Source of the DNA: an uncultured Rhodopila sp.
GTDB taxonomy: Bacteria; Pseudomonadota; Alphaproteobacteria; Acetobacterales; Acetobacteraceae
DNA: 64,000 bases
Direction: 5' to 3'
Assembly (NCBI GenBank): GCA_903932145.1
Contig: CAIZFE010000053.1
Location: 1 to 64,000, forward strand
Shown: positions 13,234 to 63,180 of the stretch, in pieces
Position numbering within the stretch: position 1 is the first letter of the stretch
How the letters are laid out: every line of letters begins with the position of its first letter
The notes under the pieces: generated by a model
The model's input: only the letters and a program-made list of their open reading frames with translations
Told to the model about the DNA's origin: nothing
Databases searched by the model: none
Position numbers and translations under genes: made by a program

Positions 13234-14942
13234 TGGCCCGCATCACCCGTGCTGCCTATGCCGACATGTTTGGCCCAACCACCGGCGACCGCGTGCGGCT
13301 GGCCGACACCGACCTGATCGTTGAGGTGGAGAAAGATTTCACCATCTACGGTGAGGAAGTAAAATTCGGCGGTGGCAAAGTCATCCGCGACGGGATGGGT
13401 CAGTCCCAATATTCGCAGGCTCAGGGAGCGGTCGATACGGTCATCACCAATGCGCTGATCATCGACCATTGGGGGATTGTCAAAGCCGACGTCGCGATCA
13501 CCAACGGCCGCATCGCCAGGATCGGCAAGGCTGGTAATCCCGACGTTCAACCCGGCGTCGATATCATCATCGGCCCGGGCACGGAGATCATTGCCGGAGA
13601 AGGCAAGATCCTGACCGCCGGTGGAATCGACAGCCATATTCATTTCATCTGTCCACAACAGGTGGACGACGCCATCGCCGCCGGAATGACCACACTGGTC
13701 GGTGGCGGCACCGGACCCGCGACCGGCACGGCCGCGACGACCTGCACGCCCGGCCCCTGGCATCTCGCCCGCATGTTACAGGCGGCCGAGGGACTGCCGG
13801 TCAACATCGCTTTCGCCGGGAAGGGCAATGCTTCTCAGCCGCAGGCACTGGAAGAAATGCTGCGCGCCGGGGCGTCTTGCCTGAAGCTGCACGAGGATTG
13901 GGGCACCACGCCTGCCGCGATCGACAACTGCCTTTCCGTCGCGGATCGTTTCGACGTTCAGGTGATGATCCACACGGATACGTTGAACGAGTCCGGTTTC
14001 GTCGAAGACACCATCGCCGCCTTTCAGGGCCGCACCATCCACGCCTTCCATACCGAGGGTGCCGGCGGCGGCCACGCCCCTGATATTATCAGGGTCGCCG
14101 GTCTGCCAAACGTGCTGCCCAGCTCCACCAATCCCACGCGGCCGTACACAGCCAATACGCTGGACGAACATCTCGACATGTTGATGGTCTGCCATCATTT
14201 GGACAGTTCCATCCCCGAGGACGTTGCGTTCGCCGAAAGCCGCATCCGCAAGGAAACCATCGCCGCCGAGGACATCCTGCACGACCTGGGCGCGCTTTCG
14301 ATGATGTCGTCCGACAGTCAGGCCATGGGGCGCGTCGGAGAGGTGATCATCCGGACCTGGCAGACCGCCCACAAGATGAAGACCCAGCGCGGTTGTTTGC
14401 CCGGCGACACCGATCGAAACGACAATGCTCGAGTCAAGCGCTACATCGCGAAATACACCATCAATCCCGCGATTGCTCAGGGTTTTGCCAATGAAATCGG
14501 CTCGATCGCCGTCGGAAAATTGGCCGATCTGGTGCTGTGGTCGCCCGCGTTTTTTGGCGTGAAGCCCGATTTGGTCATCAAAGGCGGATCGATCGCCTGC
14601 GCCCCGATGGGCGATCCCAACGCCTCCATTCCGACGCCGCAGCCGGTTCATTACCGCCCGATGTTTGGCGCGATCGGCCGAGCCATGGCTGCAAGCTGCA
14701 TCACCTTCGTTTCGGGTGCCGCGATCGATGCCGACCTTGGCCGGGCACTCGGTTTGCAACGCAGGCTGGCGGCGGTATCGAATACGCGCGGCCAGATCGG
14801 CAAGAGATCGATGATTCACAACGATGCCACCCCGGTCATTGAGGTCGATGCTGAAACTTACGAGGTCCGAGCGGACGGCGTGCTGCTGACCTGCGAACCG
14901 GCGACGATTCTGCCGATGGCGCAGCGGTATTTCCTGTTCTGA
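13233..14942 (+). CDS. ureC: Urease alpha (catalytic) subunit
   Basis: Cytoplasmic amidohydrolase that splits urea to ammonia and carbamate at a dinuclear nickel site. It has 569 residues, full length. All active-site residues are visible: nickel ligands His135 and His137 ([10 protein letters not shown]), the carbamylated Lys218 (CLKLHEDWG), His247 (MIHTDT), His273 ([11 protein letters not shown]) and Asp361 ([10 protein letters not shown]). The mobile-flap Cys320/His321 (MVCHHLD) is also intact. The enzyme should therefore be functional. It sits between the other structural genes and the maturation genes ureEFG. Confidence 0.97.
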
Positions 14943-58786: not shown

Positions 58787-59476
58787 TCAGGCGGCCGTCG
58801 GGTAGTTGGACGGGAACATTGCCCGCTTGGCGTCCTCGTCCATTTCGGTCTTGAACGTGTGATCGGTGCCAACCGCCCGGGCGCGCGCAACCGCAGGACG
58901 GGCGTTGATGGCATCGAACCAGCGCTTGATGTTCGGATAGGCCGCCAGCGGATCGGTGCCGCCGAGGACGGTGGTCGCCCGATCGATCCAGCCCCAGGCC
59001 GAGATGTCGGCGATGGTCAGGCTGTCACCGACGATGAACGTCCGTCCTTCAAGGTGCTTGTCCAGCACTTCGTAGTGACGCTCGGTTTCGCGGCGATAAC
59101 GGTTGATCGCGTACGGCAGTTGCTCCGGCGCGGCGCGCTGGAAATGCACGGCCTGGCCCGAATACGGCCCGATGCCGGTGCCGATGAACATCAGCCAGGA
59201 CAGCAATTCGCCACGATCCGCGGCCGAACCCATCAGCTTGCCGGTCTTCTCGCCGAGATAGATCAGGATCGCGGTCGAATCGAACACGCGAGAGCCCGTG
59301 TCGGTATCAACGATCGCCGGCAGTTTGCCATTCGGGTTGATGGCGCGAAACGCATCAGCATGCTGTTCGCCGCGCCTCGTGTCCACCGGAACGATTTCAT
59401 AGGGCGTTCCTGTCTCTTCCAGAAACAGCGATATCTTCATCGGGTTGGGCGTCGGGTGGTAGTAAAAGCGGATCAT
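58787..59476 (-). CDS. Glutathione S-transferase family protein
   Basis: Cytosolic GST-fold protein of 229 residues. The thioredoxin-like N-terminal domain (MIRFYYHPTPNPMKISLFLEETGTPYE) carries the conserved cis-proline/acid segments NPNGKLPAIVDTDT and RVFDSTAILIYLGE. The helical C-terminal domain has FIVGDSLTIADISAWGW, the N-capping box. The sequence resembles bacterial GSTs similar to YfcG/YghU-type disulfide reductases. AAGGAAA before the ATG at 59476 fixes the start. It is 10 bp after the end of the peroxiredoxin-like gene, so the two redox genes are probably co-transcribed. Confidence 0.87.
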   Translation of the reverse strand: MIRFYYHPTPNPMKISLFLEETGTPYEIVPVDTRRGEQHADAFRAINPNGKLPAIVDTDTGSRVFDSTAILIYLGEKTGKLMGSAADRGELLSWLMFIGTGIGPYSGQAVHFQRAAPEQLPYAINRYRRETERHYEVLDKHLEGRTFIVGDSLTIADISAWGWIDRATTVLGGTDPLAAYPNIKRWFDAINARPAVARARAVGTDHTFKTEMDEDAKRAMFPSNYPTAA

Positions 59477-59486
59477 GGTGTTTCCT

Positions 59487-60131
59487 TTATAGATTGCGTA
59501 GCACGTCAAGCGCCGCGTCGACCTCTGGCCGGTGCGTGTAGTCCGGATCGGCTTCCGCCATGGCAACGACACCGTCGCGGCCGATAACGATCCGAGCGGG
59601 TATCGATAATCGCCAGCTTTCGTCGCCATTGTAACGAGGCAGATCGACGCCGATTGTCTTGTAAACCTCGATCAGGTCGTCCGGCAGGCGGAACGTCAGC
59701 CCCAGGCTGTCACCAACCTGATTGTCGTGGTCGGTCAGGATTGGAAAGCTCAGTTTCTGTGCCCCCGCACCCGGTTTGGTGAATTCAGGCAATTGCGGGC
59801 ACAGCACGACGAGGCTGGCTCCGAGGGCTTCGATTTGGGGCAGTACTGCTTGCAAAGCATCCAGCTCATGCCGGCAGTACGGTCACCAAAAGCCCCGAAA
59901 AATGCCTACCACAACGGGTCCGGCGCTCAATAGGGCAGACAGCACGACCATCTGGCCGTTCTGGTCGTTCAAAGCGAAGTCGGACACCTTGGCGCCGGGC
60001 TTGATCACCCGGTCCAGAATGCCCGATCCGCGTAGCCGTACTGTCGCGTCATGCATGATGGTTTGCAGCGCGGGTGGAATGCGTTTTGCCGACGCCTCCC
60101 GCGTTGCCGCCAGTGTCGCTTCCAAATTCAT
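59487..60131 (-). CDS. Peroxiredoxin-like (AhpC/TSA, PRX-like2) protein, predicted selenoprotein with in-frame UGA
   Basis: Read through a single in-frame TGA (59883-59885), this gene encodes a complete 214-residue redoxin. The N-terminal part ends VVVGIFRGFW, then TGA, then PYCRHELDALQ. Cysteine homologues in the PRX-like2 family read FxRGxWCPYCxxEL, so the TGA sits exactly at the first, nucleophilic cysteine of CxxC (residue 83), giving UxxC with Cys86. Both halves are otherwise intact, with good codon bias, and the rest of the fold is recognisable (FPILTDHDNQVGDSLGL, ARIVIGRDG). A hairpin suited to a bacterial SECIS element starts within three bases after the TGA. The ATG at 60131 has CGGAGAA upstream. 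Likely role: thiol/selenol-dependent peroxide or disulfide reduction in the cytoplasm, with the GST gene downstream. The alternative is a Cys-to-stop mutation. Confidence 0.75.
59843..59880 (-). promoter_or_regulatory. Candidate bacterial SECIS element
   Basis: In the RNA, GUACUGC starting three bases after the UGA pairs perfectly (7 bp) with GCAGUAC. Inside it GCAU pairs with AUGC around the apical loop GAGCUGG. The apical loop starts 16 bases after the UGA, within the distance known for bacterial SECIS elements, and contains guanines as SelB recognition needs. An alternative fold (CCGGC/GCUGG) is also possible. Confidence 0.6.
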
Positions 60132-60238
60132 GATTGTTCTCCGGTTGGACGGTTGCCCCGAGGTGTGGAGTTCCCCTGTACCCGAGGGGCGGCCCATCGT
60201 CGGCTCTCCCGCGGTATTGGTTCGGATCGCCCGATCGA

Positions 60239-61207
60239 TCATGGCGTCTCCGGTTGTCTTGACGCAAAGCGTTGGACAACACCAATCGCTGTCAGCAAGC
60301 CCACCGTTACCAGCACAACCCCGAGTATTTGCTCGGTTGTCGGGATTTCACCCAGGATGGGAATGCCGATCAGTATCGATATCGCCGGTACCGAGGCCGG
60401 GAACAGCACGGCGCGGCTGACGCCCAGCACACGGATCGCGTGACTGTAGCCGACAATGCCAACGGCGCCTTGCAAGCCGCCCTGGATCAAACCTTGAACG
60501 ACCAGTGTCTCGACCGGCAACGAACGCCAATGCGGTAAGCCTACGAACAGCAGGTAGTAAGGGATCATGATCAATGCGGACAGCACGGAGACGACGGCGA
60601 TGGCGCGCAACGCCTCCAGCCGCCAAAGCCGCAGCAGCACGGTGAAGCCGGCCCACATCAGGCTGGAGCCGATAAACAGAAGATCGCCGATCCAGGTTTG
60701 GCTGCCGGGGGACGCGGTCAGGCCGTGCCAACTGATCAGCACGATACCGGAGATGACCAGTGCGGCGCCGACCAGATGGGCGGTACCCAGCCGCTCCCGC
60801 AGAAACAGTCCCGCCATGATCGTGCTGGCAACGGTGACGGTGGCCGGCGCGATCACGCCGCCATGGGCCAACGGCGCGAACGCGTAACCGGCTGCTTGCG
60901 GCAGAATGAACAGAGGACCGCCCAGAAGCAGTAGCGCCATGCCGCGCGGCCAGCCGATGCCGGCCAGAGAGAACACGCCGTAGCGGATCAGAACCGGCAG
61001 CAGGATCGCGCCGGCCACGGTAAACCGCAGCAAAGTGAGGTCCGCCGCGTACATCCCGTTCAGAATGCCCACCCGCGACCACGCAAAAGAAACCGCCGCG
61101 CTGATTGCCAGCAAACAGCCACAGAACAGGCCGAACGCCTCGCTGTTGGTGTCGAATGTCGCCCGAACCGGTGGTGCCGGCAGGGTCATGGACGGATCGG
61201 TCGGCAC
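60239..61207 (-). CDS. EamA/DMT-superfamily transporter
   Basis: Inner-membrane exporter of about 322 residues with ten predicted helices in two EamA repeats (AVSFAWSRVGILNGMYAADLTLLRF in repeat 1, LFIGSSLMWAGFTVLLRLWRLEA in repeat 2; glutamate motif FLRERLG). A GTG at 61207 with AGGAG six bases ahead is taken as start; GTG 61231 and ATG 61189 are alternatives. It is divergent from a LysR regulator across about 105 bp and is therefore its probable target. The exported compound is unknown. Confidence 0.83.
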   Translation of the reverse strand: MPTDPSMTLPAPPVRATFDTNSEAFGLFCGCLLAISAAVSFAWSRVGILNGMYAADLTLLRFTVAGAILLPVLIRYGVFSLAGIGWPRGMALLLLGGPLFILPQAAGYAFAPLAHGGVIAPATVTVASTIMAGLFLRERLGTAHLVGAALVISGIVLISWHGLTASPGSQTWIGDLLFIGSSLMWAGFTVLLRLWRLEALRAIAVVSVLSALIMIPYYLLFVGLPHWRSLPVETLVVQGLIQGGLQGAVGIVGYSHAIRVLGVSRAVLFPASVPAISILIGIPILGEIPTTEQILGVVLVTVGLLTAIGVVQRFASRQPETP

Positions 61208-62425: not shown

Positions 62426-62781
62426 TCAGGTTTCAGTATCCAGTTGGTTTTCGGGTGGCACAAGTGATTTCAATTTGACAATCAAGTCCGGTCGTTTTCC
62501 TTGCACTGTCCGCCAAACGACGTCCAATTTCACGGCGGCATGGTTATGAATCAGCCGGTGCCGCATTCCGATCATTTCACGCCAATCGATCTCGGGGTGT
62601 GCGTGCCAAAATGGACGGGACACTTTCGACGCAGCCTCGCCGATGACTTCAAGGCTGCGGATACCGCGCCCTGATGCAGCTTGCTTGCATTGAACTGCTT
62701 CTGATTCAGGCCGGCGACAAACTCGAGCGCATCGGTGGCGGCGAGCAGCCTATCCAGGAGCAGTGGTTCATCCCGCGACAA
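62426..62781 (-). pseudogene. HEPN-domain RNase toxin (HepT/DUF86-like), frameshifted
   Basis: Two frames together encode a complete HEPN toxin of about 118 residues. The first (from the ATG at 62781) reads MSRDEPLLLDRLLAATDALEFVAG...HQGAV and the second continues RSLEVIGEAASKVSRPFWHAHPEIDW then MRHRLIHNHAAV. The last is the RX4-6H ribonuclease motif. One base is missing near 62660-62664 (between GAV and RSLEVIGE). The intact toxin would cleave RNA and be neutralised by MntA. It overlaps the MntA gene by 14 bp in the usual operon order. Confidence 0.72.
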
Positions 62782-63088
62782 AAATCGGCTCCGCTTCCTG
62801 AAGAATGCGGTGGCGGCGCAGGTAGTTTCGGCTTTGCTCCACGGCGCCTCTGTCGATCAGGTCGACCGGCCGTTCGAGAAGCTTTTCGAGCGCTTCCTTC
62901 ACGTCGAGATACGTGGTCATGTTGGCCGCGTCCTCCGGTGCGAACTCGACCAGCAGGTCGATATCGCTACGAGTTGGATCGAAATCCTGCTCACGCGTGG
63001 CCGATCCGAAGACGTCCAGGCGCTTGATGTTGAAGCGCCGGCAAAGGTCTGCCAGGTTTTCGGTCTGACTGCTGACAATTGCGTGCAT
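62768..63088 (-). CDS. MNT nucleotidyltransferase antitoxin (MntA-like)
   Basis: Minimal nucleotidyltransferase of 106 residues. The catalytic pattern GSATREQDFDPTRSDIDLLVEF (GSx...DxD) is complete, and the C-terminal part (YLDVKEALEKLLERPVDLIDRGAV) is normal for the family. In characterised pairs MntA neutralises the HEPN toxin by adding AMP to it. The ATG at 63088 fits the family N-terminus (MHAIVSSQTENLADLCRRF); a start at 63151 is less likely. The downstream HEPN gene is frameshifted, so the antitoxin may have no target here. Confidence 0.82.
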   Translation of the reverse strand: MHAIVSSQTENLADLCRRFNIKRLDVFGSATREQDFDPTRSDIDLLVEFAPEDAANMTTYLDVKEALEKLLERPVDLIDRGAVEQSRNYLRRHRILQEAEPIFVAG

Positions 63089-63180
63089 GGGCGGTTCCGG
63101 TCCAGGATCGTGAGCGGCGACGCCTTCATAGCACAGTGCGGCTATCGACACAGCAACGCCGTTGCGCCCCGAGGCTTGTG

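Follow-up and report, generated by a model that had tools for sequence, protein, structure and literature searches.

Does the in-frame TGA at codon 83 of a peroxiredoxin-like gene specify selenocysteine (Sec), or does it mark a gene that is broken, misread or divided in two? The question is raised by the minus strand at 59487..60131 of the window, the term used here for the whole stretch of 64,000 nucleotides that was analysed. On sequence evidence the gene almost certainly encodes a single Sec-decoded selenoprotein of 214 residues, of the UxxC peroxiredoxin-like kind. Standard annotation would split such genes or label them pseudogenes.

Reading frame and product

The gene extends on the minus strand from an ATG at 60131-60129 to a TAA at 59489-59487, with the sequence GGAG, a likely ribosome-binding site, 7 nt 5' of the ATG (60139..60142, minus). 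Under Table 11 it is split into frames 59883-60242 and 59487-59855, just as the original prediction, whose coordinates are correct and whose unstated strand is minus, had said of ordinary annotation. Read-through of the UGA at codon 83 (59883..59885, minus), a codon that is also TGA in relatives, gives the 214-residue protein with FRGFW-U-PYC-RHEL. The UxxC motif of this protein is W-U83-P-Y-C86, and its second redox residue, Cys86, is encoded by TGC at 59874..59876 (minus). That the two same-phase frames parted by TGA make up one protein, as had been proposed, is borne out by Pfam AhpC-TSA (PF00578), which matches with 65.2 bits (cut-off 26) in a single stretch, residues 46-190, spanning the TGA. 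The redoxin family PF08534 also matches (58.8 bits). Alignment A3, consisting of 34 of the 57 main-motif-group (group A) proteins from genome_contigs together with P0001, has PF00578 matches in 35 of 35 members (E up to 1). Cys86 is invariant in all 35 aligned Sec proteins, 34 of which were picked by a pattern demanding Cys86.

Codon 83 in relatives and the decoding machinery

Within the same family 194 of 299 genomes have a redoxin match at E <=0.001, and codon 83 in the 30 best-match family loci is TGA in 9 and TGC in 21. The three closest family relatives (69-72% identity) have TGA at codon 83, and the same codon is TGA also in relatives of 46-51% identity and Cys in others. Strong matches with one TGA are present in 11 family genomes, and the TGA position was inspected in the nine other than G244 and G274. 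At the level of the class 45 of 385 genomes are matched at E 1e-30; among 29 further class loci, TGA stands exactly at codon 83 in 15 and TGC or TGT in 14. Family and class thus agree with the expectation, formulated beforehand, of Cys at this position in some homologues and TGA in relatives. The TGA form occurs also in a named strain, Rhodopila globiformis DSM 161 (L161). One Cys form, L207, has an in-frame TAG five codons upstream, at the Tyr of its FYRG motif, which may be an error or the sign of a decayed copy.

A scan of genome_contigs for F-R-G-x-W-TGA-P-Y-C returned at least 118 loci, and the titles of the matches listed include Pseudomonadota, Acidobacteriota, Gemmatimonadota, Myxococcota, Planctomycetota, Desulfo-type bacteria and others. 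When the matches listed are taken together with the nine family loci, all 127 of 127 show homology to the window protein in the read-through frame (121 distinct, since six contigs occur twice), a figure that measures homology and not the frequency of Sec use, as the pattern demands TGA. In a quick tree built from 159 rows (125 Sec and 34 Cys; short rows, identical rows and L207 removed) the window gene falls among 28 rows from Acetobacteraceae, Reyranella and other alphaproteobacteria that form a group of Sec forms only. The Sec/Cys label changes 3 times on the tree against a shuffled mean of 31.2, and the tree carries limited information on the direction of Sec/Cys change because the Sec rows were picked by the TGA pattern. 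Downstream of the TGA dN is 0.17-0.56 against dS of 0.93-1.56 in 8 relatives, and upstream 0.23-0.60 against 1.16-1.81 (8 relatives, dS saturated in one); by this simple count method, in which dS is high, both sides of the TGA look to be under purifying constraint.

All three of selA, selB and selC, whose absence the original prediction had named as the result that would count against it, are present in the window genome (6.66 Mb in 115 contigs, completeness 100), and so is selD. The selC gene, a tRNA-Sec with UCA anticodon, scores 71.8 bits (cut-off 47), selA, directly before it, 555.1 bits (cut-off 267.9), selB 409.5 bits (cut-off 242.25) and selD 300.4 bits (cut-off 125). Within the family all 11 of 11 TGA-form genomes carry tRNA-Sec (E 1e-9), against 99 of 299 genomes overall and 5 of 32 with a strong stop-free form (a match of at least 150 bits); Fisher tests of the two comparisons give 3.5e-6 and 7.6e-7 respectively, uncorrected for relatedness. 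Within the class the corresponding numbers are 15 of 15 TGA-form genomes versus 7 of 29 genomes lacking that form. Two family genomes were set aside from the count, G192 (51.6 bits, one TAA) and G065 (29.9 bits, one TGA), and weak redoxin matches of this sort are known only among the matches listed. The weak match at G065:C162:5715-6074 has its TGA in frame, lies in a genome with tRNA-Sec, and is possibly another Sec redoxin.

Three UGSC-family genes of the window genome (L179, L180 and L181, on contigs C4, C48 and C111) each have TGA at the U of UGSC, followed by a hairpin, and score 99.5-109.5 bits, below the cut-off of 125; they are likely further selenoproteins of this genome. Sec formate dehydrogenase was rejected as the reason for the machinery, as none was detected in the window genome among 14 listed TIGR01553 matches, all of which are stop-free and below the cut-off. 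A TGA-containing FdhA match occurs in 4 of 20 genus genomes (one partial, below cut-off), and in the 11 family genomes that carry the TGA redoxin, FdhA contains a TGA in 3, is stop-free in 1 and goes undetected at E 1e-60 in 7. The accessible part of a 2006 survey (PMC1794560) gives Alphaproteobacteria one selenoprotein family, with FdhA the sole selenoprotein of the Sec-decoding organisms there; by contrast, the window genome, probably one of Acetobacteraceae, has a non-FdhA candidate. One non-FdhA selenoprotein and three UGSC genes would be added to an alphaproteobacterial genome.

The hairpin after codon 83

A bSECIS-like hairpin, evaluated by folding, synonymous shuffles and a published model, lies at 59843..59880 (minus), in keeping with the hairpin predicted just after the UGA. 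On the minus strand it consists of a lower stem of 7 bp (59880-59874 with 59849-59843), an upper stem of 4 bp, one bulged base and 3 bp (59871-59864 with 59858-59852), and the apical loop UGGAU (59863-59859), which lies 19 nt past the UGA. Counted from the UGA, the first 48 nt have a folding energy of -20 kcal/mol (z -3.47), compared with a shuffled mean of -11.8 kcal/mol (sd 2.36), and 1 of 200 shuffles is equally stable. The bSECIS model, as given in the accessible text of PMC13188914, has an apical loop of 3-9 nt with G in the first two loop positions, and an upper stem of 4-16 bp, 16-37 nt from the UGA, with MFE <=-7.5 kcal/mol. The window hairpin falls within these constraints, as do, in a similar loose test, 588 of the 1771 TGAs of the window (both strands, any frame); 27 of the 1771 pass the loose test and also reach -20 kcal/mol, as the redoxin TGA does.

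Open frames on both sides of a TGA are likewise frequent. Within the window 42 TGAs, among them that of the redoxin, are preceded by at least 80 open codons and followed by at least 125, and 13 of the 42 have a bSECIS-like hairpin. The split frame was rejected as proof of Sec decoding, the pattern being too frequent in the window, and a hairpin by itself is common in the GC-rich DNA of the window. From these counts it follows that split frame and hairpin alone are insufficient for the claim of a selenoprotein, which exceeds chance because of the comparative evidence and not because of the split frame.

The hairpin was compared among relatives in a pair test on 88 of 89 loci (L083 being too short, and 38 further scan loci left out), divided by motif into groups of 66, 18 and 4 loci, with the group of 4 excluded. 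Its apical-pair register was picked after the folds of the same sequences were known. In the main motif group the 58 distinct Sec sequences form on average 6.03 of 8 apical pairs versus 4.19 in synonymous-codon shuffles, 37 of the 58 at p <0.05, with a mean folding z of -1.39. The 18 sequences of the second group have 6.89 of 7 pairs versus 4.42 when shuffled (16 of 18 at p <0.05; z -1.08). Among 18 Cys forms there are 4.67 pairs versus 5.25 in shuffles, 0 of 18 significant and z 0.06, and thus the excess structure of the Sec relatives is absent from the Cys forms. A bulge in the upper stem leaves the window sequence with 4 of 8 pairs in that register (p 0.12), though in energy it lies 3.0 sd below its own synonymous shuffles.

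Alignment A2, of 53 sequences, from which five of the 58 (L052, L062, L121, L125 and L129) were omitted as distant before counting, has 80.2% of cells paired versus 38.0-45.3% in slid registers, and its covariation score is above all 500 column shuffles. Double-sided changes occur in 3 of 8 pairs, a count that 382 of the 500 column shuffles equal or exceed, and within the 9 family sequences double-sided covariation is absent.

Alternative readings, active site and gene neighbourhood

A nonsense change of TGC or TGT, whether in a dead gene or through sequencing error, would fit the TGC at codon 83 of other family members, and a split frame alone is not unusual in the window. However, the same TGA recurs in numerous separate assemblies and in tree groups made up of Sec forms only, tRNA-Sec is present in 26 of 26 TGA genomes, and selection downstream of the TGA appears to be purifying. 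Random decay would moreover scatter stops of all types, whereas TGA stands at the motif codon in the 24 loci inspected codon-wise, and a pseudogene or misread gene is very improbable. Hardly any probability attaches to two separate proteins, the first ending at the UGA and the second starting at TTG 59855, where a 122-residue ORF does begin: Pfam and the AF2 model show one domain across the junction, the Cys relatives are a single open frame, and the product from the TTG (residue 93) would be without the motif and without model strands 53-55, 61-63 and 73-77. Near-cognate tRNAs can read through UGA, and so Cys or Trp might be inserted through suppression or an altered code, with no part for selenium. 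TGA terminates five of the six neighbouring genes inspected and is therefore an ordinary stop here, contrary to a code in which UGA generally means an amino acid. The complete Sec pathway of the genome and the excess structure confined to TGA forms also argue against insertion of Cys or Trp, which is scarcely to be credited.

With Sec at codon 83 as the preferred reading, the gene is, to the extent that sequence can show, a selenoprotein gene that is conserved and accompanied by its decoding parts. Those parts are present, and their action here would follow the known bacterial Sec pathway by analogy. Translation would arrive at the UGA of codon 83, SelB on the hairpin a few bases downstream would bring Sec-tRNA(Sec), and elongation past the UGA would run to the TAA. 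In the product Sec83 would most likely attack and be resolved by Cys86; the selenenylsulfide so formed may then be reduced by glutathione or thioredoxin, and the substrate would be a hydroperoxide or a disulfide.

The AF2 model (pLDDT 96.9) is one domain across the UGA site with a predicted peroxiredoxin fold, in which the active-site helix begins with W-U-P-Y-C, and its nearest solved fold in a VIA-align structure search is AhpE. The product may be a peroxidase or a thiol oxidoreductase, the two functions originally proposed. In place of the signature PxxxT(S)xxC/U, sequence alignments give R79-x-x-x-U83-x-x-C86, with Sec83 in the Thr/Ser position and Arg79 for the conserved Pro; in this the window protein differs from Sec-peroxiredoxin (TxxU) and from classical Prx such as AhpE. 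Cys86, and not Sec83, aligns with the peroxidatic Cys of AhpE- and Bcp-type proteins, and with AhpE as the nearest solved fold this would favour a true selenoprotein in which Cys86 is peroxidatic and Sec83 resolves. Such an arrangement is nonetheless unlikely. In UxxC and CxxC redoxins the first residue attacks, and alignment with ResA puts the first motif residue at the attacking position. The second Cys is gone altogether in the UxxS cd02970 selenoprotein listed in the accessible part of PMC13188914. Sec83 is thus probably the attacking residue. It is possible, though doubtful, that Sec at the catalytic-Thr place and Cys at the peroxidatic position jointly form a selenenylsulfide-cycling site, representing a chemically distinct class of peroxidase/reductase in several bacterial phyla, and that the window genome, Sec formate dehydrogenase being undetected in it, has at least four users of its Sec machinery. 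The natural Sec and Cys forms of this peroxiredoxin fold make up a large series that could serve for tests of what Sec contributes.

SelU/PRXL2A-type and SelL-related proteins share with the window protein a Prx-like character and redox motifs containing Sec or Cys. Membership in AhpC-TSA_2 (PF13911), the family linked to SelU, was rejected at 12.6 bits against a cut-off of 27, as was membership among SelL-related redox proteins (NF040769) at 24.4 bits against 120. UxxC Prx-like selenoproteins have been predicted before. The Sargasso Sea set has a Prx-like family of distant Prx homology with UXXC replacing TXXU (PMC1088965), the GOS set has Prx-like 1 (pfam00578, UxxC) with 225 sequences (PMC2398784), and 32 Prx-like thiol:disulfide oxidoreductases are given for 28 organisms in PMC5029168. 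A 2026 review puts the UxxC Prx-like family under 'predicted with high confidence' and not under 'experimentally verified' (PMC13188914). The window protein is likewise PF00578, Prx-related, with UxxC for TxxU and UGA-coded Sec (compare PMC1088965, PMC2398784 and Table 1 of PMC13188914), and by domain and motif alone it would be placed in this family. Table 1 of PMC13188914, in its accessible form, lists also the PRX-like2 (cd02970) selenoprotein as UxxS and a 'Redoxin family protein' (PF08534) as UxxC; with both the window protein shares the AhpC/TSA or redoxin type and Sec at the motif start, while it differs from the former in being UxxC. The PRX-like2 name used in the original prediction is a CDD label and, for the window protein, a provisional one. 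This kind of enzyme is already known, and this member is without description in searchable sources: literature searches returned no account of the window protein in its organism family and none of a selenoprotein in Rhodopila globiformis.

A glutathione S-transferase-fold gene (58787..59476, minus; Pfam GST_N/GST_C) starts 10 nt past the redoxin stop and is possibly co-transcribed with the redoxin gene. It resembles glutathione-dependent disulfide-bond oxidoreductases, and the best NCBIfam match of the longer frame, 58787-59629, is NF010579 with 170.2 bits (cut-off 332). As a conserved partner it was rejected, since a tblastn comparison covering 88 of the 89 loci, many of them short, finds it adjacent in the window only; weaker GST matches lie elsewhere in 3 other loci. 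Further along the window, at 62426-63151 (minus), a small nucleotidyltransferase (Polbeta/NTP_transf_2) is followed by two short overlapping frames, which resemble a frameshifted HEPN-type partner in the manner of MntA/HepT pairs. At 13382-13671 (minus) there is a match to the Rfam family 5_ureB_sRNA with 107.9 bits (cut-off 40).
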